Assembly (NCBI GenBank): GCA_937920635.1
Contig: CAKZUE010000058.1
Location: 1-54,809, forward strand
Origin: an uncultured Bryobacteraceae bacterium
Lineage (GTDB): Bacteria > Acidobacteriota > Terriglobia > Bryobacterales > Bryobacteraceae
DNA length: 54,809 nucleotides
Direction: 5' to 3'
The notes beneath the pieces are model-generated. The model saw only the letters and a program-made list of their open reading frames with translations. It did no database searches and was not told the origin of the DNA. The translations under genes and the position numbers were made by a program. Position 1 is the first letter of the stretch. Each line of letters opens with the position of its first letter. This document shows positions 6,552 through 54,809 of the stretch, piece by piece.

Positions 6552-6558
6552 CTGCAGC

Positions 6559-6981
6559 CTACTGTCCTGCCAGCGATGCCACGATGCGCACTCTCTGCCG
6601 CGAAGAAGCCACCGGACCGGATCTCCCGGCCGGCGGCACGCCCGCGCGATGCATGGCTCCGGGCGCCCAGACTTCCGCCAGGCTGTAACGGCCGTTTTCG
6701 CGCTCAAACACCAGCCCGGACGCGGGCGGCGCCTCCGCCCTGCCGGCCGGATGCGTCAGCATGGCGATGCGCCCGCCATCCGGCGCCGTGATCACCAGAA
6801 CCGGTTTGGCCGCCATGTGCTCGAACAGATACGTGCCGGCGGGGAGCGAATGCTTCCCCGCCTGAAAATCGAACGGAATTTCGGCCCTGATTTTCCGGCC
6901 TTCGGCGCGCGCCTGCCTGGAAAATGCTCCCAGCGCGAACAGCGCTATCGCGGCCGTCGCGCACACTCGTCTCCACGCCAT
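6559..6981 (-). CDS. small secreted protein of the acidobacterial IPFDF/LPAGTY type
   Basis: 140 residues with a signal peptide ending near ARA (residue 26). The body has EIPFDFQAGKHSLPAGTYLFEH, a pattern I recognise from many short secreted proteins in Acidobacteriota that have no assigned function, followed by beta-rich sequence (VLVITAPDGGRIAML, GLVFERENGRYSLAEVW). No catalytic motif is visible. A strong AAGGAGGG Shine-Dalgarno lies eight bases before the ATG at 6981, so the start is secure. It is a single-gene unit with a likely terminator behind it. Confidence 0.75.
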   Translation of the reverse strand: MAWRRVCATAAIALFALGAFSRQARAEGRKIRAEIPFDFQAGKHSLPAGTYLFEHMAAKPVLVITAPDGGRIAMLTHPAGRAEAPPASGLVFERENGRYSLAEVWAPGAMHRAGVPPAGRSGPVASSRQRVRIVASLAGQ

Positions 6982-7140
6982 GGTTGAGGCCCTCCTTCGG
7001 CCTGTCTGCGGCGGGCCCGCTCGCCCGCCTCTGCTTACACAGGTGCATACGCACGGAGGGCCGCACAGTTTGTAAACAGGACGCGCGGCCGGCGAGGATT
7101 TACAGCCGTCACGCGGGACATGAACGGCGCGTTGGAAACC

Positions 7141-8253
7141 TCAGGATGAAATCACCTGGAGAAATGCCGACTTGAATTTCTCCATTTCTTCCGGCGTGCC
7201 CAGCGTGACGCGCACATGATTGGGCCAGGAGGGCCAGGAGCGGCCGATGATCACCTTCCGCGCCGCCATCGCCGCGGCAGTCTCGCGCCCGGGCTTCGCC
7301 GTCCGGATCATGATCTTGTTGCTGACGCTGGGGACGAACTCGACCTGGTTGGCCCGCAGCCAGGACATGAGGTCTTGGCGCACTTTGCGCACATACTCGC
7401 GGCGCTGCTCGACGACGCCCCTGGCCTCCAGGCTGGCGGTCGCCCCCACCATGCCCGTCACCGGCAGGAATCCCGTACCGTAGGGACGGATCCGGTCCAG
7501 CAGGTCAGGCCGCGCGAAGGCCAGCCCGGCGCGCAGCCCGGCCATGCCATAAATCTTCGAAAATGTTCTGAGCACGAACACGTCCCGGCCCTCGCGCACC
7601 ATGTCCATGCAGGAAGGCGCCTGGCAGAAATGGATGTAAGCCTCGTCCACAAGCACGACGCTGCCGGCGGGCTTCGAGCGGACCAGATGCTCGACCGCCT
7701 CGCGCGGCGTCAGCGTCCCGGTGGGATTGTTCGGATTGCAGACATAGAAGACGCCTGCTTCCTTGCCTGCCGCGCGCAGCATGCCTTCCACATCGTGAGC
7801 GTATTCCTTCGTCAGAGGCACGCGGTGCACGGGCGCCTGCACGAAAGCCGCCGCGCGCTCTCCCGCTTCGTAGCCGGGATCGGCGGTCACAAAAGCGCGC
7901 CCGGGCCCGCAGAAGGCCAGCACGACGCGGTGCAGCGGATCGCTGGAGCCGGCGTAGGACTGCACGCATCCCTCCGGCACGCCTTCCATCCGCGCCGCCG
8001 TGCGCGCCAGCCGCAGCGTTTCACCGAATTGATAGCGCCCGCCTTTGCGCAGCGCGCGGTCCATCGCCTCCAGCGCCTCGGCGCAGGGTCCGAGCGGATT
8101 CTCGTTGGCGTTCAGCAGCACGGCGTCCGGAGGCGCCTCGCCCGGGTAGCTCAACTGGGCCAGAGCCCGCTCCGTCAGAACGGGCAGCGGCAGCGCGCCT
8201 AACGCTGCGGCGCGGGCGAAGGCGCGGCGGGATAGAGGTTCATGCGTTCCCAT
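7141..8253 (-). CDS. Tat-exported class I/II aminotransferase (histidinol-phosphate aminotransferase-like)
   Basis: 370 residues from the ATG at 8253. A twin-arginine signal (LSRRAFARAAALGALPLP, residues 8-25) precedes a fold-type I PLP enzyme: NANENPLGP near 49-56, NPNNPTGT 173-180, DEAYIHF 203-209, Schiff-base lysine K233 in TFSKIYGMAG and the RAG arginine R241. These are the HisC-family landmarks. Substrate cannot be told; location outside the cytoplasm would exclude an ordinary histidine-biosynthesis role. GGGGA lies about ten bases before the chosen start. An earlier ATG at 8289 is in frame but adds a polar leader ahead of the Tat motif. The first 55 bases overlap the end of the upstream creatininase gene in another frame, so the two are probably expressed together. 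Confidence 0.85.
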   Translation of the reverse strand: MGTHEPLSRRAFARAAALGALPLPVLTERALAQLSYPGEAPPDAVLLNANENPLGPCAEALEAMDRALRKGGRYQFGETLRLARTAARMEGVPEGCVQSYAGSSDPLHRVVLAFCGPGRAFVTADPGYEAGERAAAFVQAPVHRVPLTKEYAHDVEGMLRAAGKEAGVFYVCNPNNPTGTLTPREAVEHLVRSKPAGSVVLVDEAYIHFCQAPSCMDMVREGRDVFVLRTFSKIYGMAGLRAGLAFARPDLLDRIRPYGTGFLPVTGMVGATASLEARGVVEQRREYVRKVRQDLMSWLRANQVEFVPSVSNKIMIRTAKPGRETAAAMAARKVIIGRSWPSWPNHVRVTLGTPEEMEKFKSAFLQVISS

Positions 8254-9035
8254 CTTTCGATCGTCCCCCTGACCAATTCTGTCATGCAATCAACGACTGC
8301 CTGAAAATACTGCTTCGCCTTCTTCTCGTCAAACCGCAGCGAACCCTGCCCCGGCTGATAGAGAATCACCGGCGCCGGGAACGGATACGCCGCCCAGCTC
8401 CCGGCGGGCGGACGCGGCAGTTCGAGCGAAGGGCTGAAGCGCTCGCGGCGCACCAGGTGCGGGTGCGTGGCTTGCGTAAACGCGGTCTCATTCCAGCCGG
8501 CGTGCCCGCCGTCTTCGCCGAAGACTTTCAGCGTGGCATCGGAACACGCGGCCCACCAGTTGACCACCATCACGCGCACGCGGTGCTCGCGGCTCGTGTG
8601 TTCGGCCAGCTCGTTCAAAATCGCCGTTTGCGGACCGCCGTGCCCGTTGACCACGATGATGTTGCGGAAGCCGTTGCGAGCCAGGCCTTTCAGCACGTCA
8701 GCGGCAAACGGGCGGTAGGCTGTCTCCGAGATCTGGAACGTGCCCGGGTAGCCGTCGAGCGAGCCGGTGACGCCGTAGGGAATCAGCGGCGCCACCAGCG
8801 CTGCAAGCCGCGGCGCCAGCGCGCGGGCGATCTCCACCGGCGCGGTGTTGTCGGCGCCGTTGTGGATGACCCCGTGGGCCTCGATCGTGCCCGTTGGCAG
8901 CAGAACGGTCTGGATCCTGGCGGGCACGAGTTCGGCGAACTCCGCCCAGTTCAATTCCTGCAACTCGCGGCTCGACTGGGCCGAGCACGGCACCAGCACG
9001 GCGGCCATCAGCAGGACGGTGAATGCGGTTCTCAC
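8199..9035 (-). CDS. secreted creatininase-family amidohydrolase
   Basis: 278 residues starting at a GTG with GGGAGG six bases upstream. A signal peptide (MRTAFTVLLMAAVLVPCSAQ) is followed by a creatininase fold. The metal-ligand pattern of the family is intact: E52 and H54 in PTGTIEAHG, D62 in GADNTAPVE, H132 in VNGHGG, H178 and E183 in GGHAGWNETA. Family members hydrolyse cyclic amides or related formamide bonds (creatinine, FAPy-type intermediates); the substrate here is unknown. The stop codon lies 55 bases inside the following aminotransferase gene, and both products appear to be exported, suggesting a joint periplasmic role. Confidence 0.87.
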   Translation of the reverse strand: MRTAFTVLLMAAVLVPCSAQSSRELQELNWAEFAELVPARIQTVLLPTGTIEAHGVIHNGADNTAPVEIARALAPRLAALVAPLIPYGVTGSLDGYPGTFQISETAYRPFAADVLKGLARNGFRNIIVVNGHGGPQTAILNELAEHTSREHRVRVMVVNWWAACSDATLKVFGEDGGHAGWNETAFTQATHPHLVRRERFSPSLELPRPPAGSWAAYPFPAPVILYQPGQGSLRFDEKKAKQYFQAVVDCMTELVRGTIERWERMNLYPAAPSPAPQR

Positions 9036-10665: not shown

Positions 10666-11266
10666 AGACTGGCCCCCTGTTGTTCATTACCGGGAAATCC
10701 TTGACAGGCGATTCAAACCAGGCTTCGGCCACATAAGCCGTCTCGCCGCTGGCCAGAACCAGGATCGAATCAAAACCGGCCGCCCGCGCCGCTGACTTGG
10801 TCAGGTAGTCGGCAGGGAGAATCGAGCCGTCCGGCTTCAGCAACGAGTCCGGCGGCGAGGCCACGTGGCTCGGCTTCAGGCTGGCGTTGCCCACCACGAT
10901 GCGCTGCGTCACCACGGTCTGGCCCAGGTTGGAACAGGATCCCACCGCTATTCCGCCGTCGAGGCATTCCTGCCCGCCCACCTTGAGCAGCCGCGTCAGG
11001 ATCACCACCCCCGCGCCGCCGGTACGTGTCATGTTCATTCCCGCCGCCAGGCGGACGAGCACGTCCTGGTTGCCTGGCAGCGAGAAGTCGACGCCGCGGG
11101 CATACATATGGCCGGCGTCGCGGCTCACCTGCGACGTCTGCATCATTCGCCTCAGATCGAGGCCGAAGACCAGCATCCAGACATACAGCGGCAACAGAAG
11201 CGCGAAGGCCAAGGCGAATTCGATCAGCGAATTGCCCCGGCTGCTGCGTCGAGATGTTCGTTTCAT
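10646..11266 (-). CDS. TadE/TadF-like pseudopilin
   Basis: 206 residues from the ATG at 11266, chosen because AAGGGGG lies five bases upstream; an in-frame ATG at 11287 is possible. After a basic start (MKRTSRRSSRGNSLIEFALAF) comes one hydrophobic helix with the conserved Glu of pseudopilins (SLIEFALAF), then an extracytoplasmic domain without recognised motifs except two cysteines (ECLDGG, GSCSNLG). Middle gene of the three-gene unit, 23 bases after the preceding gene and overlapping the next by 20. Confidence 0.8.
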   Translation of the reverse strand: MKRTSRRSSRGNSLIEFALAFALLLPLYVWMLVFGLDLRRMMQTSQVSRDAGHMYARGVDFSLPGNQDVLVRLAAGMNMTRTGGAGVVILTRLLKVGGQECLDGGIAVGSCSNLGQTVVTQRIVVGNASLKPSHVASPPDSLLKPDGSILPADYLTKSAARAAGFDSILVLASGETAYVAEAWFESPVKDFPVMNNRGPVYARTIF

Positions 11267-41805: not shown

Positions 41806-43989
41806 TCAGAACACGCGGCCGAGACGGAAAAACACGCGGCGGTCGCCGCGGTCGCCGATCCCGCCCCCGAAATAGACCACGCCGAAGGTGGTCTCGCCCA
41901 TCAGGCCGAGCGAGCCGCTGTAGCGGGGCAGCGCGCTCATGCCGGAGCGCCACGCGTTGCCGCTTTCGGCGGCGGCGAACAGGTAGAAGCGTCCGAAAAT
42001 GCCAAGGCTTTCATAGTTGAGCGAGCGCAGCAGCCGCGTGCCGCCATAGTAGTAGCGGTTGCCGGTCTCGCGGCCGCGGCCGAGAGCGTCGAGCCGGGCG
42101 GCGCCCCCGATGGAAAAGCGGTTGTTCAGAGCTTCATTCCAGCCCGTGAACCCGGCGGCGGTGTCGGCCAGCAGCGACCACCGTTGGCTGAACGGCCGGG
42201 CGTAGCTGAAGGCGAGATCCGCCAGCGGCGGGCGCCCGTCCACGCCGGGATGGTTCAACAGCCAGGACGCGAACACTGTGGCGCGGATGCCGCGGCGGGG
42301 GACCAGCGCGCTGTCCTGCCCCTCGTACGCCCAGCGCACGTGCAGGTCGGTGACGCGGCCCTTCAGCGGCTCCAGATTCTCAGGCCCTTTGGTGACGGCG
42401 ATGCGCGCCTGGCCGGTGGACGATCCTACGCGCAATTCCTGGAACCGGCCGAAGGCATAGCCAAGATCCAGCGCGGCGCCGGCGCGTTTCGAAATGAAGT
42501 CGGCGATCTGGTCCTTTCCGCGGTAAAGCGGACGGCTGTCTTCCAGATAAAAGGCCTGCGGGGCGAGGAACCATTTTCCGCCGCCCACCCTGTAATAATA
42601 CTCGCTGGAAGCGCGGTTGATCTGCCCGATGGAGAGATCGGTGCGCCATTCCGATGCGGGCCCGCCGAGGTCGAGGAGGGTGAGCCGGCCGCCTATGCCG
42701 AAGCGGAACCCCTCCTGCCGCGAGGCATCGAGAAGAAATGACAGGTTCAGGAATGGAGGCCCGTGGATTTTCTGGTGGGGCCGGATGAGAATTCCCTCCG
42801 TATTTTCGTGGCGCAGAAATGAATAGGATACGGCGTCATAGCGGCCCATGCCGGCGATTTTGTTCAGTTCCGTTTCCAGCCTGGACCGGTCGACCGGGCG
42901 GGAGGGATCCGCGGCCAGGGCTTCGACCAGGGCCTTGCGGCGTTTCTCGGCCAGCCCGCCCTCGACGACGATCAACTGGGGGCGCACGGAATCGGGCCGC
43001 AGACGGCTGCGGCGCTGTTCGAGGTACGCGGCATAGCCGTCTTCCGGCAGCGCGAGCTGATTCAGCCAGAGGGCCTTGCGCTCAGCCGCCTGCCGCCCGC
43101 GCGCGACAAACTCTTCGAGCCTGGCGTAGTCGCTGGCGTCCAGCCCGTTGAGATCGGGCATGAGGACCAGGTCGGCGAGGCCCATGCTGCGGCGCTCATT
43201 AGCGGAGATCATGATGGAAATGCTGCGGCCAGCGACGCCGAGCAGCGAGTAGTACTGCTGTTCGTCCGGCGGCTTTTCCAACGCCACGGCGATCACAATG
43301 TCGGCGCCCATCGCCTTGACGACATCCACGGGCAGATTGTTCAGCAGCCCGCCGTCGACGAGCATCATGCCGTCCATCTCCACCGGGGCGAACAGCGCCG
43401 GCAGGCTCATCGATGCCCGCAGCGCCATGGTGAGCGGGCCGCGGGAAAAGACCACCTCCCTGCCCTGCTTGAGGTCCGTGGCGACGCAGCGGAAAGGCGT
43501 GGGCAGCTCATCAAACGAGCCAAGCTGATCGTAGGGGGCGGCGAAGCGGCTGATGGCGAGCGCCGCGCCGTGGCCGGCGGAGACGCCTGCGGGCAGTTTG
43601 AGCCCCTTGCCGACGCCGAATTCGATGGTGGAAGGGAAATCGCGGCGGTCTTCTTTGCGGCGGAAAGCGAGATGGCGGAAGGGGACGGAGGGCGCGAACG
43701 CAGCGTCCCAGTCGACGGTCGAGGCGAAGCGCTGCATCGCCTGCCCGTCGTGACCGGTGGCGTAGAGCCCGCCGATAATGGCGCCCATGCTGGTCCCGGC
43801 GATGAAGTCAACGGGAATGCGTCGCTCTTCCAACCACTGGAGCACGCCGATGTGAGCCAGCCCCAGGGCGCTGCCGCCGGACAGCGCCAGCCCGATCTTG
43901 CGGCGGGGCGGCTGGGGCTTGAGTGTCTCAGGCTGAGCGGAAAGCGGCGCGCAAAGGGCAAGCAGAGCGAACCAGGCTCGAAGCCGCAT
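41806..43989 (-). CDS. patatin-like phospholipase fused to an outer-membrane beta-barrel (type Vd autotransporter-like)
   Basis: 727 residues. Signal peptide (MRLRAWFALLALCAPLSAQ); patatin domain (about 30-300) with the oxyanion loop SGGSALG 37-43, nucleophile S67 in GTSMG and the catalytic Asp D212 in VDGG; a POTRA-like linker (about 330-400, IVVEGGLAEKRRKALVEAL ... LETELNKIAGMGRYDAVSY); and a C-terminal barrel (about 410-727) ending VFFRLGRVF with aromatic last residue. This is the PlpD arrangement, in which a lipase is carried to the surface by its own BamA-like barrel. It is divergent from the DAHP synthase gene with only 27 bases between starts. Confidence 0.9.
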   Translation of the reverse strand: MRLRAWFALLALCAPLSAQPETLKPQPPRRKIGLALSGGSALGLAHIGVLQWLEERRIPVDFIAGTSMGAIIGGLYATGHDGQAMQRFASTVDWDAAFAPSVPFRHLAFRRKEDRRDFPSTIEFGVGKGLKLPAGVSAGHGAALAISRFAAPYDQLGSFDELPTPFRCVATDLKQGREVVFSRGPLTMALRASMSLPALFAPVEMDGMMLVDGGLLNNLPVDVVKAMGADIVIAVALEKPPDEQQYYSLLGVAGRSISIMISANERRSMGLADLVLMPDLNGLDASDYARLEEFVARGRQAAERKALWLNQLALPEDGYAAYLEQRRSRLRPDSVRPQLIVVEGGLAEKRRKALVEALAADPSRPVDRSRLETELNKIAGMGRYDAVSYSFLRHENTEGILIRPHQKIHGPPFLNLSFLLDASRQEGFRFGIGGRLTLLDLGGPASEWRTDLSIGQINRASSEYYYRVGGGKWFLAPQAFYLEDSRPLYRGKDQIADFISKRAGAALDLGYAFGRFQELRVGSSTGQARIAVTKGPENLEPLKGRVTDLHVRWAYEGQDSALVPRRGIRATVFASWLLNHPGVDGRPPLADLAFSYARPFSQRWSLLADTAAGFTGWNEALNNRFSIGGAARLDALGRGRETGNRYYYGGTRLLRSLNYESLGIFGRFYLFAAAESGNAWRSGMSALPRYSGSLGLMGETTFGVVYFGGGIGDRGDRRVFFRLGRVF

Positions 43990-43994
43990 GAGAC

Positions 43995-44004
43995 TACAAT
44001 GCTA
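43995..44004. promoter_or_regulatory. overlapping divergent -10 boxes
   Basis: TACAAT (43995-44000) faces the DAHP synthase start and TAGCAT (44004-43999, minus) faces the patatin gene nine bases from its ATG. With only 27 bases between the genes, each -35 would lie inside the other gene. Confidence 0.35.
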
Positions 44005-44016
44005 CCCTGAAAACAA

Positions 44017-45363
44017 ATGGGAGTTGACTGGTCGCCGGACTCGTGGAAGCGATTCCCTGCGATGCAGCAGCCGGAATATCCGGATCCGGAGGCGCTTCAA
44101 AGAGCTCTGGATGAGCTGGCGGCGCTGCCTCCGCTGGTGACGAGCTGGGAGATCGTAGCGCTGAAGGAGCATTTCGCCCAGGCGGCTGCCGGCAGGTGCT
44201 TTGTGCTGCAAGGGGGCGACTGCGCGGAGCGGTTCGCCGACTGCAATTCGCGGCGGATTGCCAACCAGCTCAAGGTGCTGATCCAGATGAGCCTGGTGCT
44301 GGTGCAGGGCACGCAGAAGCCGGTGGTGCGCGTGGGGCGGTTCGCCGGGCAGTATGCCAAGCCGCGCTCGGCGGATTTCGAGGAAGTCAACGGACAGCGG
44401 TTGCCCGCCTACCGCGGCGATCTGGTTAACCGCCCCGAACCAAGCCCCGAGGCGCGCACGCCCGATCCTTCCCTGCTGCTGAGAGGATACGAGCGCGCGG
44501 CGCTGACGCTGAATTTCATCCGCGCCCTGGTGAAGGGCGGTTTCGCCGACCTGCACCATCCCGAATACTGGGACCTGGACTGGACGCGCCACTCGCCGCA
44601 GGCAGACGAATACCACCGGATGTTGCGCTCCATCACCGAGAGCCTGCGGTTCATGGAGAATATCCTCGGCACGAGCGCGGCGGGCAGCGACCGGATCGAC
44701 TTCTACACCTCTCATGAGGCGCTGATGCTGCCGTACGAACAGGCGCAGACGCGGCGCGTCCCGCACCGTCCGGGATGGTTCAACCTGTCGACGCATTTTC
44801 CCTGGGTGGGCATCCGCACGGCGTCTCCGGAAGGGGCGCACATCGAGTATCTGCGGGGCATCTCGAATCCGGTCGGGGTGAAGATCGGACCGGGCTTGAG
44901 CACGGATGAGATCCTGCGGATCGCTGAAAGGCTGAATCCGGCAAACGAGCCCGGGCGGCTGGCGCTCATCCACCGCTATGGCGCCGCGCGCATTGCGGCG
45001 GAACTGCCGCCGGTGATCGAGGCGATGCGGCGCGAGGGACGCGCCGTGCTCTGGATCTGCGATCCGATGCACGGCAACACGCGCCGGACGCTGAACGGCT
45101 ACAAGACGCGCAGCTTCGACGACATCGAAAGCGAGCTGAGCCAGGCGATCGACATCCACCCGCAGTGCGGATCCATCCTGGGCGGGATGCACATTGAACT
45201 GACGGGTGAGAATGTGACCGAGTGCACGGGCGGGGCGCGAGGACTGTGCGAAGCCGACCTCGGGCGAGCCTACGAGAGCGAAGTGGACCCGCGGCTGAAC
45301 TACGAGCAGGCGCTGGAGCTGGCGCTGCTGGTGGCGCGGCGGTGGCGCACCAACGGGCGCTGA
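44017..45363 (+). CDS. class II 3-deoxy-7-phosphoheptulonate (DAHP) synthase
   Basis: 448 residues. Starts MGVDWSPDSWKRFPAMQQPEYPD, the plant/actinobacterial class II signature, and carries LQGGDCAERF (metal-binding Cys), VVRVGRFAGQYAKPRS, NPVGVKIGPG and CDPMHGNT. It condenses erythrose 4-phosphate and phosphoenolpyruvate to start the shikimate pathway, which supplies chorismate for aromatic amino acids and, here, for the MqnA step of menaquinone synthesis. No attached chorismate mutase. Monocistronic. Confidence 0.95.
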   Translation: MGVDWSPDSWKRFPAMQQPEYPDPEALQRALDELAALPPLVTSWEIVALKEHFAQAAAGRCFVLQGGDCAERFADCNSRRIANQLKVLIQMSLVLVQGTQKPVVRVGRFAGQYAKPRSADFEEVNGQRLPAYRGDLVNRPEPSPEARTPDPSLLLRGYERAALTLNFIRALVKGGFADLHHPEYWDLDWTRHSPQADEYHRMLRSITESLRFMENILGTSAAGSDRIDFYTSHEALMLPYEQAQTRRVPHRPGWFNLSTHFPWVGIRTASPEGAHIEYLRGISNPVGVKIGPGLSTDEILRIAERLNPANEPGRLALIHRYGAARIAAELPPVIEAMRREGRAVLWICDPMHGNTRRTLNGYKTRSFDDIESELSQAIDIHPQCGSILGGMHIELTGENVTECTGGARGLCEADLGRAYESEVDPRLNYEQALELALLVARRWRTNGR

Positions 45364-45384
45364 CGCCCGGGCGCGCATCTCGGG

Positions 45385-45390
45385 TAGGAT
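45385..45390 (+). promoter_or_regulatory. candidate -10 box, leaderless promoter of the GH27-fragment/GH42 unit
   Basis: TAGGAT ending six bases before the GTG at 45397; no Shine-Dalgarno for that start. Confidence 0.4.
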
Positions 45391-45396
45391 GAGGGC

Positions 45397-45801
45397 GTGC
45401 TGATCACGGTCGCTCTTCTGGCGGCATGGCAGGCGGCGGCATCTCCCTGCGCTCTGGCGGAGTGGGCGCTGGGGCGCGGGCAAAAGCCGGCGGTGCTCGA
45501 CGTGGCCGTCATGCAGGTGGAGGAGCGCGGCAAGGGGCCGGCGCGCCTGGCGTGGCACGATCCGGATGTCGAAATCTGGGTGCGTCCGCTCGACGATGGC
45601 GAGACGGCGCTGATGATCGCCAACCGCGCGCGCCGCGCGGTGAGCGCGGACGTCATCTGGCGCGAGCTGGGACTGGGCGAGAAACGCGCGGTCTTGCGCG
45701 TGTTCGACGTGCTGAAGCGGAAGAACCTGGGCAAAATCCACGGGGGCTTCGCGCACCGGCTCGAGGCGGGCGCGTGCGCGTTGTTCCGGCTGGAACCATG
45801 A
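45397..45801 (+). CDS. orphan alpha-galactosidase (GH27) C-terminal-like domain
   Basis: 134 residues from a GTG. The whole length resembles the end of GH27 alpha-galactosidases: a segment aligning to the last barrel turn (LLAAWQAAASPCALAEW ... VLDVAVMQVEERGKGPARL, where the family has 'VIAVDQDPLG'), then the C-terminal beta-sandwich (EIWVRPLDDGETALMIANRARR, ADVIWRELGL, VFDVLKRKNLGKIHGGF, LEAGACALFRLEP). The catalytic barrel is absent, so no enzyme activity is expected. It may be a truncated remnant or a free accessory domain; the N-terminus doubles as a plausible signal peptide. Its TGA overlaps the ATG of the GH42 gene. Confidence 0.55.
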   Translation: MLITVALLAAWQAAASPCALAEWALGRGQKPAVLDVAVMQVEERGKGPARLAWHDPDVEIWVRPLDDGETALMIANRARRAVSADVIWRELGLGEKRAVLRVFDVLKRKNLGKIHGGFAHRLEAGACALFRLEP

Positions 45802-47996
45802 AACAAAAAACGGCTCTTCTGATTTTGGCCTCCGCGCTGGCGGCGGCCGGGGCGGACGGCGTGCTGCCGGTTTCGGTGTGGTACGGCGGAGGCAAAGCGC
45901 GGGCGCCGATGCTGGAGCCGGATCCGCGCGCGAAGAAGGAACAATGGCGCGCCGACATCCGCAAGATCAAGGGGCTGGGCTTCCGCACCTTCCGCTGCTG
46001 GGTGGACTGGGCGTCGGCGGAGCCCGAGCCGGGACGCTATGATTTCTCGACTCTCGACGTGCTGCTTGAACTCGCCGAAGAAGAGGGCATGCGCGTCTTC
46101 GTGCAGGTCTACATGGACTCGGCCCCGGAATGGGTAGGACGCCGCTACCCCGATTCGCTGTTCGTGTCCTCGAGCGGACAGGCGGTGCGGCCGGAATCGT
46201 CGCCGGGCTACTGCCGCGACCATCCGGGCGTGCGCAGCGCGGACAACGCCTTCTACCGCGCCCTGGCGCGGCACGCGTCCCGCAGCAAGGCGCTGCTCGG
46301 ATGGGACCTGTGGAGCGAGCCGCATGTGATCAACTGGGCGAATCCAACCTATATTCCCAATCCGGAATTCTGCTTTTGCGACAATACGAAGCGGCGTTTC
46401 CGGCAATGGCTGCAAAAGAAATACGGTTCGCTGGATGCGCTGAATCAAGCCTGGTATAGGCGGTATGGCTCGTGGGAGGAAGTCGAGCCGAACCGGCTTT
46501 CGACCATCCTGAGCTACACGGACTACATCGACTGGAAAATGTTCATCGCCGGCAAACTGGGCGAAGATCTGCGCGAGCGGTACGAAGCGGTGAAAGCGGG
46601 CGCGCCGGAAGCGATGGCGACCAGCCACGCCGCGGGCGTGGGGCTGTTCGCTTCGCCGCACTGGTGGGAGGGGCAATCCGACGACTGGGTCATGGCGCGG
46701 CAGGTGGATTACTACGGAACGAGCTTTTATCCGAAGCATTCGGCGTTCGTGGACCGCGATCCGGCGTGGCGCGGAGCGCTGCTGGATTTCACCCGGAGCT
46801 TCGGGTTTGGCGAAGGCCGGCGGGGTTTTGTCATCGGTGAATTACAGGCGGGATTCGGCACAATTGCCGTCAATGTGAGCCCGGAAGTGACGGCGGATGA
46901 TTTGCGGATCTGGGCTTGGTCGGCGCTGGCGCGCGGGGCGAAGGGGATCCATTTCTATGCCTTTTATCCGATGAGCACCGGGTATGAAGCGGGTGGTTTT
47001 GGACTGATTCACCTGGACGGAACGCTGACGGAGAGAGCGCGGGAGGCGGGCCGGTTTGCGCAGACCGTAGCGCGGCACGAGAAGCTGTTTCTGGAAGCGC
47101 GCCCGCCGCGGGCGGAGGTGGCGGTGGTCTACAACCCGCTGGCGCATTTCGTGGGCGGACGGCAGCGGCAGGCGGCGTACGGAGGGCCGCAGGGCGAAGT
47201 GGCGGGGATCGAGAGAGACTCGCTGCTGGGGATCTATAAAGCATTCTGGCCCGAGAATGTTCCAGTCGATTTCGTGCATGCGGGAGCGCTGTCGGCAGAG
47301 GCGCTCCGGCAGTACAGGCTGGTGTACCTGCCCTATCCGCCGATGCTGCCCTCGTATCTGGGACAGGTGCTGCGCGATTACGTGCGCGGCGGCGGCCATC
47401 TGGTGGCGGAGGCGCGCGCCGGGTGGAACAGCGAGAGCGGGCGGGCATCGGAAATTATCCCGGGGATGGGGTTGCACGAGGTGTTCGGCGCGCGCGAGGC
47501 GGCGGTGGAGACGGCGCCGGGCGGGCGCACCGTCCTCGTGTTCGATGGCGGGCTGAAGGCGCCCGCACGGTGGTTCCGCGAGGTGCTCGAACCAATGGGG
47601 GGACGGGTCGTGGCGCGCTTCGAAGATGGAGCGGTTGCTGCGGTGGAGTCCTCATCGGGCCGGGGCAAGGCGCTGCTGGTGGGATCGTACCCGAGCGCGG
47701 CCTATCATACGATGCCGAGCGAAGACGCGCGAAAGTGGTTCGTCTCGCTGCTCGGGTGGGCGGGCGTGCGCAAGCCCCTTCTCGCCGATGGCGGAGTGGA
47801 AGCCCGGTGGCTGGAGGCGGGCGCGAAACGGGTTGTGTTCGTGTTCAACCACGAGAGGGAAGCGAAAGCGGTGAGGCTGCGGTGGCAGGAGGGCGGGCGG
47901 TGGCGGATCGAAGACCTGATCGAAGGCGGCGCCGGGCAGGCGGAGTTCACCTTTGCGGGCAGGGGCGTGCGGGTGCTGGCGTTCGAGAGGGAATAG
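45798..47996 (+). CDS. secreted GH42-type beta-galactosidase
   Basis: 732 residues. Signal peptide (MKQKTALLILASALAAAGAD), a GH42-like TIM barrel (about 25-400) with acid/base E174 in GWDLWSEPH and probable nucleophile E348 in FVIGELQAGFG, and CxxDN near 192-196. A glutamine-amidotransferase-like trimerisation domain follows (about 440-640, VPVDFVHAGALSAEALRQYRLVYLPYPPML, RGGGHLVAEARAGW), then a beta-sandwich (about 660-732). The last 122 coding bases are repeated at 51508-51629 downstream. ATGA overlap with the preceding GH27 fragment. Cleaves beta-galactosides; substrate preference unknown. Confidence 0.88.
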   Translation: MKQKTALLILASALAAAGADGVLPVSVWYGGGKARAPMLEPDPRAKKEQWRADIRKIKGLGFRTFRCWVDWASAEPEPGRYDFSTLDVLLELAEEEGMRVFVQVYMDSAPEWVGRRYPDSLFVSSSGQAVRPESSPGYCRDHPGVRSADNAFYRALARHASRSKALLGWDLWSEPHVINWANPTYIPNPEFCFCDNTKRRFRQWLQKKYGSLDALNQAWYRRYGSWEEVEPNRLSTILSYTDYIDWKMFIAGKLGEDLRERYEAVKAGAPEAMATSHAAGVGLFASPHWWEGQSDDWVMARQVDYYGTSFYPKHSAFVDRDPAWRGALLDFTRSFGFGEGRRGFVIGELQAGFGTIAVNVSPEVTADDLRIWAWSALARGAKGIHFYAFYPMSTGYEAGGFGLIHLDGTLTERAREAGRFAQTVARHEKLFLEARPPRAEVAVVYNPLAHFVGGRQRQAAYGGPQGEVAGIERDSLLGIYKAFWPENVPVDFVHAGALSAEALRQYRLVYLPYPPMLPSYLGQVLRDYVRGGGHLVAEARAGWNSESGRASEIIPGMGLHEVFGAREAAVETAPGGRTVLVFDGGLKAPARWFREVLEPMGGRVVARFEDGAVAAVESSSGRGKALLVGSYPSAAYHTMPSEDARKWFVSLLGWAGVRKPLLADGGVEARWLEAGAKRVVFVFNHEREAKAVRLRWQEGGRWRIEDLIEGGAGQAEFTFAGRGVRVLAFERE
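47871..47992 (+). repeat. left copy of the 122-bp direct repeat (3' end of GH42)
   Basis: Identical by eye to 51508-51629 except at 47873 (G versus C) and 47952 (T versus C), same orientation and same reading frame (VRLRWQEGGRWRIEDLIEGG ...). The two copies are 3637 bases apart and bracket the helicase gene. Confidence 0.9.
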
Positions 47997-48016
47997 GCGG
48001 TTTGCAGGACCTCGCA

Positions 48017-48038
48017 CGGTTGCTTGCTCAGGCAACCG
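48017..48038. terminator. hairpin between GH42 and the helicase stop
   Basis: CGGTTGC (48017-48023) pairs with GCAACCG (48032-48038), eight-base loop, placed between the two convergent stops. No T-run on either side; may serve as a bidirectional terminator or mark the island edge. Confidence 0.4.
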
Positions 48039-48039
48039 G

Positions 48040-51000
48040 CTAGCTCCGAGGGAGCCGCCGGTCAAGCTCCTTAAAAACTCCAGCTTCACACCATAGGGAT
48101 CGGTTGCCAATTACGTAAATCGCCTCCTTGGCACGGGTCACAGCGACATTGAGCAGGTTTGGTCTCCTGCCTGCCCAGTCCCTTGCTCCCTTCTGCTTAG
48201 GATCTGGGGCACCAAGGATAAAGAATACCGCTTCTGCCTCGCGCCCTTGTGCGGTGTGCACTGTTCCCACCCTTTCATACATCCAGCTCCATTTTTTCTC
48301 TTCCTGCATCCAGACTCTCCAGACGCCGCTTTCATCGACCAGCTTCCGAAGACGCTCCGCTACGATCACGAACGGTGTGAGGACATAAAAGTCAGGATCC
48401 AACCTGGCATCGGCAAGCCTGCGCAGGAGCCCAATCAGCACCTGGCCTTCATCGGGACACCATTTGTCTTCGGCGGATCCCTGAACATCAAACCAGAAGC
48501 TCGGTCCCACCAACTCCCTGATTGCGGAATCCCGCGGCTGTTTCAGTGAGACCATTTGCCCGGCATATGCAATGGCATTGGAGATGCCGAACATAGGCTC
48601 TGAGCACCGCCGGTGCACCAGCAGAGGAACACCGACGGTACGGCTGCCCCGCTCCAATTCGAATTCACTCTGACATGGACATACTGCATCCGCCAGGGTT
48701 TGCACCGAAGCCGAAGGCGCAGCCCAGTCCGCGGTCGAGATCCCGAATTCCTCGCAAATCGCCTGAACAAGTTGATCGGGCAATTCGACCACCGGCTCCA
48801 ACTGCGCCGGGTCACCGACAACAACGATTCTTCGGCACCGAAAGATCGCTCCAACCGCAGCCTGAGGCACAGCCTGACCCGCTTCATCAACGAAGAGCCA
48901 TCCAAGGCTTGCCGCTGGAAGAAAGCGGAACATTCTTTCCACCGAAGCAAACGTTGTCGACACGAGTGGCACCACAAGGAACAGCGAGGACCACAATTCG
49001 GGTAGGATTTCAAGTTTGTCCTCGCCTAGCCTACGGGGCTGCGTGAATGCGTCCATGAGCGCATTGAGATTGTGCCGGAGAGGCTTCGCTGCCGCATCGA
49101 TAAACGCGCGATGCACTTCCAACGACGCCCAGAAAAGGTTGTGCCGCATACGAGTCAAATCGGCCGACAGCCACAGGTTGGCCGTCTGCCTGTCTTTGTG
49201 AGGCAACGAGAAGAACTCGTCGTCTGGCAGTACAACCCCTGAAGCCTTCTCCGCTTCGATGCGTTCCCGTATCTCATGCAGACTACGCCGTAAGCCGTCA
49301 GCTGAGGCCTGGAGGCTTGCGAGACGCCGTCCCGCCTCGTCGTGAGCCTCCTGGGCCTTTTTCGCACGGTCGGATGCTTCGCGCTCGTCCTTTTCTGCCT
49401 GTGCCAGAGATTCGTGCAGTTCCCTGTAAACGCTGGCCCATACTCGCGCGCGAGATGTGCGCAGGAGTCTCAGGAACCATCCTGGCCGCCTCTTGAGATG
49501 TGACTCTACTGCCTGCCGGCACCGGCCAACACGGCCTTGCGCCTGCTGCAAAACGCTGAGGCAAGCGGCAAGTTCGCCTTCTGCCGATTCCACAATATTT
49601 CTCCCGGCAGATAGGGCTTGTTCAACGCCGCGCAGCTTCAGCTCCAGGTCCGAAATGGCGAGAATCTTCCCGCGAAGATCTTCCAGCTCCTGAAATCGCC
49701 GCTCCGCTTGTTTCAGAACACGCTGGAAATGCCTTCTGGCACGCTTCCATCGCTGGAGCGCCTGTTCATGGCTATCGGGTGGTTCCTCTTTGCTAACGAC
49801 GAGTGGTGGCCTCTCAAGCACGTGTCCGCCATCCTTCCCAGGCTCTTTCACCATTGGCTTCTGGCCAACAGCAGCCCTGAGGTAAGAGCGAAAGCTGACA
49901 TCCTCATCCCACCAGAAGTATTGTTTGAACCGCGCTCTGTTTTGCATATTGCCCAAAACGGCCGCAATCAGCCCCCAGGTTTCGGTCTGACAGAGCGCAT
50001 CGGAGACCGTAGTAAAATATCGGCATCTTCGCAAGCCCGCATCCACTGAACCGATGCCAGGAATCTCTGCGCTAATGTTCTCAACAGCTTTGTTATTGGT
50101 GGAGGCCACCACCATCTCGTAACCGCGAATAGAAGGATGAAGGCGATAGAGGTGAACCCAGGCTGTCCCTGCGCGGATTTTCATGCCCGAGTGTTGAAAG
50201 GCCTCTTCGGGTTCATCGAATGCACACAATGCCTCGGCCCGCTTCGCGATCACCGCGGCGACGAGGTCCCTGAGCAGAGTCGTCTTGCCTGTGCCCGGGG
50301 GGCCATTTACCGCAAAAATATGCCCCTTTTCCGTTTCATGAAACGCCAGATTCGCTGCAGCCTGTTGCAGTAGGACGGGCGGAGGACAGCCGGGTGCAGG
50401 CCAAGCGGCACGGGTAATGAGTTCCGGCTTGACAGCGTCCTCAAGCGCTTTTCTGTCCTCTTTGATGTCACGCCGGGCTTCCGGTTGCCTTATTCGGAGA
50501 TAATAGTCTATGCCCTTAGGCAACTGTTTAGACTTGAGATGCTGGAGTGTACGAGAAAGATCCTCAAGATAGAAGCTGTTCAGAAGAATGGACTCTGGAG
50601 GATTGCGGTCCCAGTCTGGAACGTACGACAGAATGGAAAAGCCAGGAGGCTCCACCCACTTATCTGGAATTTCTAGAATGCGTACCAGCGTCTCAAAGAT
50701 TTTGTTGAGGGTCTTGCTGGTAAGGGGTTGTCTCTTTCTGTCTTCGTTTTCTGAATCTCCTGCTCCGGTTTTAAAATAGAGGCATTTCTCCAGAGCCGCC
50801 GTCAGGATCGGCTCGGCTTTAGTCCATTCTGTGAGCTTGCGTAATTCGCCCTTCAGAGCCTTAATAACGCCCCAGGCAAAGCTCGAAATCCGCAGCGCCG
50901 GAGATTCAACCGGCACTCCATCATCGCTGACGGTAATCGAACCGAGCAAAGCACTCCTGCGGTTGACTGGCCTTTCGAAGCGGGTGTCGCCCCAACGCTC

Positions 51001-51237
51001 CAGCAGAGCTTCGAGCGCGGGCTGAATTCGGATCGACCCGAGCGGAACTTGATGGTACAGCTTGTGCCGGGGCTTTGTACTGGGTGCAAGTTCCCAAGGG
51101 AGCTTCGATCGGTCAAGCCTCAGTACGCGCGATCTGTCTCCGCCGATCAGGTCTTCAGGCCTCTGAAAGGATTGAGGAGAAAGAACCTCGATCGCGCTCC
51201 AGGCGAGCAGGATCCTCTCGGGGCTGCTACGGGCCAT
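48040..51237 (-). CDS. superfamily 1 (Upf1/DNA2-like) helicase with coiled-coil insertion
   Basis: 1065 residues. Helicase motifs in order: Walker A GPPGTGKT 312-319, Ia VVASTNNKAVENI 376-388, Walker B VDEAGQA 783-789, III GDPAQLEP 808-815, HRRCSEPMF 875-883, TPF 954-956, V TAQGREAEAVFF 995-1006, VI NVAVTRAK 1030-1037. Between Ia and Walker B lies a long charged coiled coil (about 490-665). The first 300 residues match nothing I recognise (LYHQVPLGSIRIQPALEALLERW). No nuclease motif is visible. AGGAG lies six bases before the ATG at 51237. The codon use is more AT-rich than in its neighbours. COG1112-type helicases of this size occur in antiphage systems (for example Mokosh), but no partner gene is present; defence is a hypothesis. 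Confidence 0.85.
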   Translation of the reverse strand: MARSSPERILLAWSAIEVLSPQSFQRPEDLIGGDRSRVLRLDRSKLPWELAPSTKPRHKLYHQVPLGSIRIQPALEALLERWGDTRFERPVNRRSALLGSITVSDDGVPVESPALRISSFAWGVIKALKGELRKLTEWTKAEPILTAALEKCLYFKTGAGDSENEDRKRQPLTSKTLNKIFETLVRILEIPDKWVEPPGFSILSYVPDWDRNPPESILLNSFYLEDLSRTLQHLKSKQLPKGIDYYLRIRQPEARRDIKEDRKALEDAVKPELITRAAWPAPGCPPPVLLQQAAANLAFHETEKGHIFAVNGPPGTGKTTLLRDLVAAVIAKRAEALCAFDEPEEAFQHSGMKIRAGTAWVHLYRLHPSIRGYEMVVASTNNKAVENISAEIPGIGSVDAGLRRCRYFTTVSDALCQTETWGLIAAVLGNMQNRARFKQYFWWDEDVSFRSYLRAAVGQKPMVKEPGKDGGHVLERPPLVVSKEEPPDSHEQALQRWKRARRHFQRVLKQAERRFQELEDLRGKILAISDLELKLRGVEQALSAGRNIVESAEGELAACLSVLQQAQGRVGRCRQAVESHLKRRPGWFLRLLRTSRARVWASVYRELHESLAQAEKDEREASDRAKKAQEAHDEAGRRLASLQASADGLRRSLHEIRERIEAEKASGVVLPDDEFFSLPHKDRQTANLWLSADLTRMRHNLFWASLEVHRAFIDAAAKPLRHNLNALMDAFTQPRRLGEDKLEILPELWSSLFLVVPLVSTTFASVERMFRFLPAASLGWLFVDEAGQAVPQAAVGAIFRCRRIVVVGDPAQLEPVVELPDQLVQAICEEFGISTADWAAPSASVQTLADAVCPCQSEFELERGSRTVGVPLLVHRRCSEPMFGISNAIAYAGQMVSLKQPRDSAIRELVGPSFWFDVQGSAEDKWCPDEGQVLIGLLRRLADARLDPDFYVLTPFVIVAERLRKLVDESGVWRVWMQEEKKWSWMYERVGTVHTAQGREAEAVFFILGAPDPKQKGARDWAGRRPNLLNVAVTRAKEAIYVIGNRSLWCEAGVFKELDRRLPRS

Positions 51238-51262
51238 CTTTCACTCCTGGGCGTTACCCTCT

Positions 51263-51280
51263 CTGAACATGCTGGTTCAG
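51263..51280. promoter_or_regulatory. operator-like palindrome upstream of the helicase
   Basis: CTGAAC (51263-51268), six bases, GTTCAG (51275-51280): perfect arms centred about 35 bases before the helicase start. It resembles but does not match LexA boxes (their GAAC and GTTC are spaced by four). A dimeric repressor site is plausible. Confidence 0.45.
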
Positions 51281-51323
51281 GAAACTCTGTTGCTTTGAAC
51301 TTCCCGGTCGGACAACAATCTAA

Positions 51324-51340
51324 CACTCTTTAATTGAGTG
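51324..51340. promoter_or_regulatory. second dyad upstream of the helicase
   Basis: CACTC (51324-51328), TTTAATT, GAGTG (51336-51340), the most AT-rich spot in the island, about 90-100 bases ahead of the helicase start. Could be a promoter or operator element. Confidence 0.3.
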
Positions 51341-51477
51341 CCGCATAAGTGGGGACGACTTGGGCGAAGTATATCCTCGCCATGTCTGTCGTTCATCCAA
51401 ACCGGGAGTCGCCAAGCGTAACCGCAGATACTTTCGAGCTGCATCGAAGACGGGGGGGCAGAGGGGCAGCCGAATCC

Positions 51478-51633
51478 GTGCTCAACCGAGAACTCCGCGC
51501 TAAGAACGTCAGGCTGCGGTGGCAGGAGGGCGGGCGGTGGCGGATCGAAGACCTGATCGAAGGCGGCGCCGGGCAGGCGGAGTTCACCCTTGCGGGCAGG
51601 GGCGTGCGGGTGCTGGCGTTCGAGAGGGACTGA
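51478..51633 (+). pseudogene. orphan 3' end of a GH42-type gene
   Basis: Fifty-one codons ending in TGA: VLNRELRAKN followed by the same VRLRWQEGGRWRIEDLIEGG ... GVRVLAFER as the GH42 C-terminus. The last 122 bases are nearly identical to the intact gene; the preceding 36 bases keep the frame and 20 of 36 bases, then similarity stops. There is no start or upstream body, so it is a fragment. The rest of the gene-free stretch 51238-51679 holds only the dyads and the next gene's promoter. Confidence 0.7.
51508..51629 (+). repeat. right copy of the 122-bp direct repeat
   Basis: Pairs with 47871-47992, two mismatches, direct orientation. It is followed by TGA and then by the unique DNA ahead of the outer-membrane protein gene. 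Confidence 0.9.
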
Positions 51634-51652
51634 AGTGGCAGGGGCGCGCCAA

Positions 51653-51674
51653 ATCAGGACTTTGGTATCCTGAT
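51653..51674 (+). promoter_or_regulatory. palindrome overlapping the -10 box of the outer-membrane protein gene
   Basis: ATCAGGA (51653-51659), eight bases, TCCTGAT (51668-51674). The right arm covers the candidate -10 TATCCT (51666-51671, with TGG before it), which ends eight bases before the ATG at 51680. A bound regulator would block initiation directly. Confidence 0.4.
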
Positions 51675-51679
51675 CTCGC

Positions 51680-52216
51680 ATGATCCTATCCCGTTCTTTT
51701 CTCCTCCCCGTGGCGGCCGCGTTTGTCGCCGCGTGCCCGCTGATGGCGCAGCAGGAAGGGCATGAGGGGCGCGGCGCCGAAGAGATCCACCGCCACCATT
51801 TCGCAGTACTCGCCGGCGGCAGCCACAACACGAAGAAGGACGGCGGCACCATCGGCGCCGATTACGAATACCGCTTTCATCACCGGCTGGGCGCGCTGGC
51901 GAGCTTCGAATACGTCGCCGGCGACTTCCGCGAAGACGTGTATGTCTTCACCGCCGCCTGGCATCCCTGGAAAGGGCTGCGGCTGATCGCCGGGCCGGGC
52001 TTCGACCGCGAATTGAAGCGGAAAGAGGAGACCGAGCACCTGGCGGAGCCGGAACATCACAGCAAGTACCGTGGGCTCTTCCGCACTGGCGCGAGCTGGG
52101 AGTTCCACCTCAAGGAGCATTTCACGATCGGCCCCGAGATCGCCGTCGACGTGCTGAAAGGCGAGAAGGTGTTCGTGTACGGCATCAACTTCGGATTCGG
52201 CTTCGGCCGCCGCTAG
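51680..52216 (+). CDS. small outer-membrane beta-barrel protein
   Basis: 178 residues. Signal peptide (MILSRSFLLPVAAAFVAACPLMAQ), a His-rich linker (HEGRGAEEIHRHH) and alternating strands consistent with an 8-stranded barrel (HFAVLAGGSHN, GTIGADYEYRFHHRLGALASFEYVAG, YVFTAAWHPWKGLRLIAGPGF, TIGPEIAVDVLKGEKVFVYGINFGFGFGRR). Histidine and Glu-rich loops could bind metal (speculation). No family name is certain. Likely leaderless, with a palindrome over its promoter. Lies directly outside the right repeat, in normal high-GC DNA. Confidence 0.65.
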   Translation: MILSRSFLLPVAAAFVAACPLMAQQEGHEGRGAEEIHRHHFAVLAGGSHNTKKDGGTIGADYEYRFHHRLGALASFEYVAGDFREDVYVFTAAWHPWKGLRLIAGPGFDRELKRKEETEHLAEPEHHSKYRGLFRTGASWEFHLKEHFTIGPEIAVDVLKGEKVFVYGINFGFGFGRR

Positions 52217-52231
52217 CCGGGCCGATCCCGC

Positions 52232-52237
52232 TACAAT
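52232..52237 (+). promoter_or_regulatory. candidate -10 box, leaderless promoter of the TlpA-like gene
   Basis: TACAAT ending six bases before the ATG at 52244; no Shine-Dalgarno. Confidence 0.45.
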
Positions 52238-52243
52238 CGTGCC

Positions 52244-53434
52244 ATGATGAGTGCCCTGCTGCTGGGATTCGTGTTCGCGGCGCCGCCATCCGGTCTGTGG
52301 GACGCTGCGCTCGACGTCGACGGGCGGCGGGTGGACTTCCGGATGGAATTGAAAATCTCCGGGGGCGAGGCGCGCGGTGCGATCCTGGACGGCGAGCGGC
52401 GCATCTGGTCCACCTCCGGGAGCTTCGCTGGTCAGAGACTGGAGCTCGCCTGGGACTACTTCGATTCGCGGCTCGAGGCGGAGTGGGACGGGAAGATGCT
52501 GCGCGGCGCCTATCAGCGGCGCACCCGCGCCGGCGTGACCCGGCGTGCGTTTTCCGCGCAGCCGTTTCAGCCCATGCCGGAGGACACGGATCATGCACCT
52601 GTGCAGGTAGGGGGCGCATGGCGGATTCAAACCAGCGCGGCGCGCGGCGTGCGCGTGATGAACGGCTATTTCGCGCAGTCGGGCTCCGCCGTCAGCGGCA
52701 CGATTCAACGGCTGGATGGAGATTTCGGAACACTGTCCGGCCGCGTGGAAGGGCGGCGGCTGCGGCTCTCGCATTTCGACGGCATCCGGGCAACGCTGAT
52801 CGAAGCGGAATTGCAGGCGGACGGCACGTTGAAGGGCGTCATGGACGGCAAGACGGAATTCACGGCGGCGCGGGTGGAGAAAGCGGCTGAACTCGGGCTG
52901 CCGGAGCCGCCGGATCCTTCGCGCTATGTGTCGGTGAAGAACCCGCTCGAGCCGGTGCGGTTCCGCGCGGTGGATCTTGACGGAAAAGCGGTCTCCTCGG
53001 AAGACCCGCAATTCCGGGGCAAGCCGCTGTTGTTGACGATCATGGGCTCGTGGTGCCCCAACTGCCACGACGAAGCAGAGCTGCTGGTGGAATTGCACAG
53101 GAAATATGGCGCCAAAGGGCTGGCGGTGGTGGCGCTGGGCTTTGAGTATACAGGCGAGTCCGAGCGCGACCGGAACCAGTTGCGCGCGTTTGCGCGGCGG
53201 CATGGGATCGAGTATCCGATCCTGTACGCGGGCACGACCGACGAAGGCGAAGTGCAGCGGGTGCTGCCGCAACTGGCGAATTTCGGCGGGTTTCCGACGA
53301 CGATTTTCCTTGACCGCGGGCACCGGGCGCGCTCCGTGCACGCGGGATTCGCCGGACCGGCCAACGCGCAGGAGCATGCGAAGCTCCGGGAAGAGTACGA
53401 CCGGCTGGTGCGCGAACTGCTGGAAGGCCGCTGA
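52244..53434 (+). CDS. TlpA-like thioredoxin-fold protein with N-terminal beta domain
   Basis: 396 residues. A short hydrophobic start ([15 protein letters not shown]) is probably a signal peptide. Residues about 18-210 are two similar beta-rich halves ([55 protein letters not shown] and [40 protein letters not shown]), followed by a TlpA/AhpC-type domain (about 235-390) with the redox pair C271-P-N-C274 in GSWCPNC and cis-Pro segment [10 protein letters not shown]. Periplasmic thiol-disulfide exchange is likely. Start codon fixed by the TACAAT six bases upstream. Confidence 0.85.
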
Positions 53435-53453
53435 TCCGCGCGGGCGCGGCGGA

Positions 53454-53459
53454 TAGAAT
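53454..53459 (+). promoter_or_regulatory. candidate -10 box for the glycoside-hydrolase-like gene
   Basis: TAGAAT ending seven bases before the GTG at 53467. It overlaps an alternative in-frame ATG at 53458. Confidence 0.4.
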
Positions 53460-53466
53460 GGCCCGC

Positions 53467-54809
53467 GTGAAGGCTCGCGCGAGTCTGCTTCTCCCTCTGA
53501 TGGCTGCGGCAGCCCTGGCGCAGCCATCAGCGCGCATCCGCCCGTGGGCGCAGAACCCTTTCTATTGGGAATACGGCGGACGGCCCGTGCTGCTGGCCGG
53601 GGCGAGCGACGATGACAACCTCTTTCAGTGGCCGGACAGGGAGCTGTCCGAACACCTGGACCGCCTTGCCGCCGCCGGCGGCAACTACGTCCGCAACACG
53701 ATGTCGGACCGGAAAGACCGCGGCTGGGAGGAGTACCCATTTCAGCGGCTCGAGTCCGGCAAGTACGATCTGAGCCAGTGGTATCCGGAATACTGGCGGC
53801 GGTTCGAACGGTTTCTGGACTGGACGGAAAAGCGCGGCATTATAGTTCAGATCGAGGTGTGGGACCGGTTTGATTCCAGCACGCAATACTGGCCGCCGCA
53901 TCCGTACAATCCAGCGAATAATGTGAATTACACCTTTGAGCAATCCGGATTCGCACCGGAATATCCGGATCATCCGGGCCGGAACCGCCAGCCGTTTTTC
54001 TTCACCACGCCCCGGCAGCGGAACAACGCCGTGGTCCTGCCGTACCAGCAGCGGTTTGTCGAAAAGATGCTGTCTTATTCCCTGCGGCACGGCCATGTGC
54101 TTTACTGCATGGACAACGAAACCAACGGAGAAGAGGAGTGGGGGCGCTACTGGGCGCAGTTCATCCGGGAGCGGGCGCGGCAGGCGGGCGTGGACGTGTA
54201 TCTGACCGAGATGTGGGACGACTGGAATCTGCGCGCCGAGCGGCACCGCCGGACGCTCGACCACCCTGAACTCTATGACTTCGTCGACATGAGCCAGAAC
54301 AACCACAACAAAGGGGACGGGCACTGGTACAACGCCCTGTGGGTGCGCGGACAGCTACTCGACCGGCCGCGGCCGATCAACACGGTGAAGACTTACGGAG
54401 CGGACGGCAACAAGTTCGGCCACACGGATCAGGACGGCGTGGAGAGGGTGATCCGCCACGTGCTGGCCGGATTCGCCTCCGTACGGTTCCACCGCCCGCC
54501 GGCAGGGCTGGGGCTGAGCCCGAAGTCCGAGGCCGTGCTGCGGGCGCTGCGGCTGCTGGAATCGCTGGTGAAGCCGTGGGAGCTGGAGCCTGCGCCTCCG
54601 GCGCTGCTCGACGGGCGTGAAGAAGCCGAAGCCTGGGCGGCGCATGTTCCGGGGCGCGCGTGGGCCGCGTATTTTCCCGCCGGCGGGCGGGTGGAGTTGC
54701 AAACTCCGCCGGGGCGGTTCACGATCCGCTGGATCGACGCGGACGCGGGACGGTCCGGCCCCGGGGCGATGGCCGAAGGCCACGGATGGCTGGAATTGTC
54801 CGCGCCGTC
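53467..54809 (+). CDS. secreted glycoside-hydrolase-like TIM-barrel protein, 3' end outside the window
   Basis: At least 447 residues, open at the window edge. Signal peptide ([18 protein letters not shown]), then [67 protein letters not shown] and [28 protein letters not shown], where the Asn-Glu pair is the expected acid/base position of a clan-A glycosidase. TEMWDD may supply the second acid. After about residue 380 a beta domain begins ([32 protein letters not shown]), like the collagen-binding-type domain that follows DUF4038 barrels. Start at GTG 53467; ATG 53458 is in frame. Confidence 0.75.

Follow-up and report, generated by a model that had tools for sequence, protein, structure and literature searches.

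A lone helicase gene bracketed by a duplicated GH42 gene end in a Bryobacteraceae genome, possibly inserted by homologous recombination

Organization of the locus

The window, a 54,809-nucleotide stretch of DNA from an uncultured Bryobacteraceae bacterium (genome G000), is the whole of contig C58 in an assembly of 91 contigs and 4,147,848 bases. It includes an intact gene encoding a 732-amino acid GH42 β-galactosidase-like protein (nucleotides 45798 to 47996, plus strand), which was identified as an open frame with matches to the Pfam families Glyco_hydro_42 and Glyco_hydro_42M and has orthologues in all four congeners (G001 to G004) that together with G000 make up our five-genome sample of the genus. 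A 122-nt segment at the 3' end of this gene (nucleotides 47871 to 47992, plus strand, context GAA TAG), named D1, is found again in direct orientation at nucleotides 51508 to 51629, with a spacing of 3637 nt. A first-pass annotation of the window had reported a match at 120 of 122 positions, and alignment of the two copies bore out both the coordinates and the count, with 120 identities, 2 mismatches and no gaps (98%). It had also taken the left copy for the end of an intact GH42 gene and the right copy for an orphan end, a description with which the open frames, the Pfam matches and the alignment agree. The left copy stops one base short of the GH42 stop codon. The right copy, which with its own stop (GAC TGA) forms an orphan GH42 3' end (nucleotides 51508 to 51633, plus strand), lies in frame within an open frame of 94 amino acids (nucleotides 51349 to 51633) that had no match in a Pfam scan. 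Upstream of nucleotide 51508 no resemblance to the GH42 gene ends stood out, the scores being reached by 46 (G000 end), 11 (G004) and 170 (G003) of 200 shuffles. A search of the whole G000 assembly (E ≤ 0.001) for further copies, one of the checks that the annotation had proposed, returned only these two.

The DNA between the copies includes one long gene (nucleotides 48040 to 51237, minus strand), which on the basis of its open frame, Pfam and PADLOC matches, predicted structure and composition encodes a 1065-amino acid Upf1/Dna2-like helicase of superfamily 1 (SF1). This gene is transcribed toward the GH42 gene, and a left spacer of 43 bp (nucleotides 47997 to 48039) separates the two stop codons. 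On its other side are a 92-bp leader (nucleotides 51238 to 51329) and a 178-bp right spacer (nucleotides 51330 to 51507). The orphan end is followed by a 46-bp leader (nucleotides 51634 to 51679, plus strand), conserved in G003 and G004, and by an open frame (nucleotides 51680 to 52216, plus strand) that the annotation named the "barrel" gene and for which a Pfam scan found no match. Directly 5' of the barrel start there is an inverted repeat, ATCAGGA...TCCTGAT (nucleotides 51653 to 51674), which is almost intact in G003 and partly preserved in G004 and may be an operator. No tRNA gene was found in a search of nucleotides 44000 to 54809.

Direct-repeat pairs of the D1 kind are rare. A screen for pairs of 50 to 600 bp, at least 85% identical and 0.8 to 10 kb apart, found no second such pair in the rest of the window or in the congener DNA that was sampled, 900 kb in all (460 kb from G004, 400 kb from G002 and 40 kb from G003); the decayed pair of G004 described below lies under the threshold of this screen. 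The 91 contigs of the G000 assembly might suggest an assembly artefact at a short repeat, but contig C58 is continuous through both repeats and the single-contig genome G004 has the same order of genes, and we regard an artefact as extremely improbable. The islet is genuine, small and integrase-free.

Composition of the helicase gene

The helicase gene is compositionally foreign. Its G+C content is 0.567, whereas none of 55 overlapping 3.2-kb windows taken from the left part of the stretch falls below 0.639, and its two tetranucleotide distances are both greater than all 55 window values. The annotation had described one long gene of lower G+C content on the opposite strand and had called for windowed G+C and tetranucleotide analyses, the results of which uphold that description.

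The helicase and its family

The protein shows the Pfam AAA_11/AAA_12 domains of SF1 helicases, and the same scan found no nuclease domain. Its best PADLOC match was MkoC, with 213 bits over profile positions 252 to 946 of 1136; the MkoC matches of this helicase and of six related proteins end at profile positions 946 to 963. The predicted structure has a mean pLDDT of 90, and its nearest solved folds are senataxin, Dna2, Upf1 and IGHMBP2. The TM-scores are modest, presumably since the shared part is mainly the helicase core.

Related stretches confirmed in named genomes number at least 423, and the best 80 were kept as loci, among which near relatives may be missing; the best identity within these 80 was 50%, to a Nitrospiraceae bacterium. 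Helicase matches were found in 581 of 72,556 plasmid records (528 called conjugative, 506 from Klebsiella), only 24 of them covering 80% of the query, and in 3 of 50,697 phage records, one of which covers 80%. In a sample of 396 genomes of the phylum four matched at 1e-100 including G000, the best other at 41% identity, and 5 of 61 relatives, again including G000, had a match at 1e-10. A recent acquisition from a known donor was sought among the relatives, the phylum sample, the kept loci, the plasmids and the phages, and none was found.

A scan of 98 of the 118 listed neighbouring frames in 31 family loci, called mechanically so that some may not be genes, revealed no fixed partner gene; the commonest Pfam families, the LysR domains, occurred in 3 of the 98 frames and Phage_integrase in 2. 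The matches listed, which cover the first 25 families out of 86 in one listing and out of 191 in another, include several to defence genes (restriction, BREX, AbiE, MADS and SngB/SngC). A defence role of the helicase protein is likely; judging from its family and neighbourhood, it is probably an anti-phage helicase that works alone or with help from the host.

There are 104 to 219 extra open codons before the match in 32 of the 43 family loci tabulated, and a short N-terminal motif of approximately RPYF..SI..LE..F...L..EL.HR.T.RA..L, followed by a linker, recurs in the 17 loci from outside the genus whose frames were read. The G002 and G003 helicase frames are without this RPYF-type motif, and in the window the helicase start codon is immediately preceded by a stop (51238 onward).

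The site in other genomes of the genus

In G003 the GH42 gene is followed by 44 bp and then by the barrel gene, which is the empty site that the annotation had proposed to look for in relatives. Because of this arrangement, the right copy in the window can be placed at approximately the native position, and the 3' flank of the left copy represents the insertion. In G004 the GH42 gene (nucleotides 861818 to 864013), a helicase gene (864065 to 867256, minus strand) and the barrel gene (867669 to 868217) are found at the same site and in the same orientation as in G000, and the two helicases are 71% identical. The helicase is present at this site in this one congener and absent from it in the other three; G001 and G002 cannot show the ancestral junction because their GH42 and barrel genes are on different contigs or far apart. 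Helicase genes at this spot in all relatives, or a uniform composition, had been named in the annotation as the outcomes that would speak against an acquired cassette; what was found is one carrier among four congeners and a foreign gene.

The barrel gene of G004 is also preceded by an orphan GH42 end, which is decayed. By BLAST it is 83% identical over 52 bp to the left copy of the same genome, and a local alignment of the two agrees in 46 of 57 columns. The pair scored 54.5 bits, and none of 300 mismatched flank pairs scored above 33.7 bits. The barrel gene starts 46 bp beyond the right copies, versus 44 bp beyond the gene end in G003. Both right copies have the stop context TGAAG, versus GAATAG, GAATAA and GAATAG in the three intact genes; this shared stop is weak evidence since the GH42 genes of G001 and G002 also have TGA stops. 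Within the insertion, the leader of the helicase gene is homologous to its G004 counterpart (the score was reached by 0 of 500 shuffles) and the left spacer is weakly similar to that of G004 (2 of 500). For the right spacer there is no detectable G004 homology (323 of 500), which speaks against a single old insertion.

The helicases of G002 (58% identity) and G003 (48%) are located elsewhere, with no clear flanking repeat or shared ends, although decayed ends could be missed. That of G002 adjoins a type III-A CRISPR gene set including Csm2, Csm4, Cas10 and RAMPs (L038, nucleotides 3 to 4746 and 5500 to 8709). That of G003 (L037, nucleotide 2149 onward) marks the point at which collinearity with G004, G001 and G002 ends; the gene preceding it, which from its sequence we take to be dehydrogenase-like, had no match in G000 at 1e-60. 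A search of G001 for the helicase at 1e-10 gave no match.

Duplicated gene ends outside the genus

The first-pass annotation had explained the repeats by a small, horizontally acquired cassette that integrated at the 3' end of the GH42 gene, its integration enzyme being lost or supplied in trans. An element that integrates site-specifically, its attachment site lying within the GH42 3' end, would account for the intact gene end on one side, the orphan end on the other and the empty site of G003, and integration at the 3' end of a protein gene has precedents in the literature. We nevertheless consider this origin quite improbable: the helicase is the only long gene in the islet, the G002 and G003 helicases have no clear flanking repeat, and the wider family offers little that resembles the arrangement.

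The family was screened for gene-end duplications using 9-base words in 3-kb flanks, and then using 7-base words in 1.5-kb flanks with 300 mismatched control pairs. The second screen listed 84 loci, of which 79 (75 from outside the genus, two of them viral contigs, and 4 from within) came with flanks of 500 bp or more on either side; L075, L082, L085 and L131 were not in the list. None of the 75 outside loci had a clear duplicated gene end in its 1.5-kb flanks, and such duplication as a family-wide habit is without support in them. Only the window, G004 (L026), L068 and L070 exceeded the control maximum of 33.7 bits. The L068 pair was rejected as a duplicated gene end, since it overlaps terminator-like inverted repeats at gene ends; that of L070 was rejected as a 33-bp match in short, doubtful frames, and a pair in L090 from the 9-base-word screen was rejected because it contains inverted repeats and falls largely outside frames. 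In eight family loci where tRNA targets were looked for none was found.

Further out, L125, a distant member of the family from Saccharopolyspora (33% identity), has two collinear pieces of a 429-amino acid frame that recur across the helicase in a 117-amino acid frame (92 bp at 86% and 39 bp at 82%), the distance to the helicase being roughly 1.5 kb on either side. The duplicated stretches are at nucleotides 4241 to 4445 and 10675 to 10881. The helicase of L125 may be bracketed by a partial coding duplication, and a family-wide statement that gene ends are not duplicated would not be clean.

Age of the insertion

Protein distances were compared for the pairs G000-G004, G000-G002 and G002-G004. 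The ratio of the helicase distance to that of GH42 was 2.97, 2.82 and 2.79, to that of DAHP synthase 6.20, 6.86 and 7.02, and to that of gene 41809 2.51, 2.30 and 2.32. It was less constant with respect to the TlpA-like gene (3.41 versus 1.91 and 1.80) and the barrel gene (1.31 versus 1.02 and 1.03), and the helicase of G003 is an outlier in these ratios. The helicase distances of G000, G004 and G002 thus appear roughly clock-like with respect to three of the five reference genes, and because they track these genes the islet is probably older than the split of G000 and G004. If it is that old, the orphan end must have been homogenised in G000, where only 2 of 122 positions differ; at 20% divergence the binomial probability of 2 mismatches in 122 is 7e-10. 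The 98% identity of the repeats need not date the insertion.

The main rival, and a serious one, is a separate later insertion in G000, that is, two insertions at the same place, an earlier one in G004 and a recent one in G000, both guided by GH42-end homology, with G003 never having had the islet. The repeats are 98% identical in G000 and decayed in G004, and in either species the right copy most resembles the left copy of that species, which requires either homogenisation in both species or two events. The helicase has a dS of 1.42 between G000 and G004 (uncorrected for base composition), above that of all 12 other genes compared (0.43 to 1.16), and its GC3 is 0.60 in G000 versus 0.72 in G004 and 0.72 to 0.77 over G004, G002 and G003. 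Among four-fold sites at which a single helicase has A or T while the other two have G or C, the odd one is that of G000 at 46 sites and that of G004 at 13. The higher dS and lower GC3 would fit a later arrival from elsewhere.

Two longer flank trees place G003, which is empty, next to G000 (support 0.999 and 0.977), so that a single insertion then requires a loss in G003, while GH42-only trees group G000 with G004 (0.963 for nucleotides 45798 to 47300 and 0.948 for 47500 to 47996) and site counts are near a three-way split in parts. In the last 490 bp of GH42, 39 sites favour G003 and 57 favour G004, versus 473 and 358 in the rest of the left block (Fisher p 0.003). This lean of the gene tail would fit a second insertion, but it is weak, and nucleotides 42706 to 43005 lean to G004 more strongly (19 versus 36). 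Two insertions would also demand the same unusual event twice, and they sit poorly with the roughly clock-like distances and with the homology of left spacer and leader to G004. We hold this account to be tentative, a possibility that deserves weight and is yet improbable on balance.

A proposed origin by homologous recombination

The reading that we prefer, with a probability of roughly 0.48, is one GH42-anchored insertion by homologous recombination in an ancestor of the G000-G004 group, without an integrase, followed by recombination between the repeats. The helicase would be an accessory gene long resident in the genus, inserted behind the GH42 3' end in the common ancestor of G000 and G004. 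The route could have been a single crossover with a molecule carrying a GH42 end and the helicase, or a one-sided variant of it. The event would have left the GH42 gene complete and followed by the helicase, with the native 3' end of GH42 displaced to become the orphan before the barrel gene. The 122 bp duplicated here agree with the duplication or deletion of target homology expected from a homology-anchored insertion by single crossover or HFIR; no donor molecule carrying a GH42 stretch was found in the helicase searches. Later, the 122 bp of the orphan may have been re-equalised in G000, by conversion or by excision and re-integration. A crossover between the repeats would be expected to produce an empty locus like that of G003; G003 may also never have carried the helicase there.

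The preferred reading keeps part of the cassette proposed in the annotation. Horizontal acquisition is consistent with the foreign composition and the empty site, but a recent stand-alone insertion by an integrase is doubtful given the decayed version in G004. Similarly, the islet does lack an integrase, as the annotation had noted; that such an enzyme inserted it and was then lost, or acted in trans, is doubtful.

A stronger version of the preferred reading, which we consider unlikely, is that the islet is a self-renewing switch without an integrase, in which RecA-type recombination would repeatedly remove, re-insert and re-equalise a lone defence helicase. Presence or absence of the helicase would then be a reversible polymorphism in the genus. 

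More generally, the islet illustrates how a single gene of defence type may be gained and lost by a chromosome although it brings no recombinase with it. It also cautions against dating an insertion as recent from flanking repeats that are almost identical, since a related species has a decayed version at the same site. Because the locus of that species is arranged alike, with its second copy worn, the islet looks like the outcome of ordinary recombination rather than a new mobile element.

Comparison with known systems

In Mokosh type II, MkoC has a C-terminal PLD nuclease within the same protein as the helicase. The islet protein shares the SF1 helicase core with MkoC but is without its nuclease part, the last 190 positions of the profile (947 to 1136) being unmatched.

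Integrative elements, of which SGI1 at trmE is an example at a protein-gene 3' end in the available accounts, resemble the islet in the intact gene end with an orphan end on the far side. Direct repeats that complete the target gene and an empty site in a relative (G003) are found here as in such elements, whereas the islet has no integrase or recombinase and only one gene.

Gene-end displacement has been proposed, in the portions of these reports available, for Rhs C-terminal (PMC2935791) and T6SS effector loci (PMC5361080). As in the islet, DNA is anchored in a conserved gene and the older downstream part is orphaned; unlike in those loci, the islet has one and the same 3' end twice, and its cargo, an unrelated helicase, is encoded on the opposite strand.

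A counterpart to the proposed route is an E. coli conjugation assay in which, according to the part of the report available, 56 of 60 clones gave a PCR product diagnostic of a part-gene duplication, and 14 sequenced clones had duplications of 109 to 950 bp, which its authors explain by one crossover between the target and a circular molecule (PMC3240628). The assay was a laboratory event with a plasmid, while the islet is read from sequence and is probably old; in both, part of the end of the target gene is duplicated without a site-specific integrase, and single-crossover duplications of the kind described there fit the anatomy of the islet.
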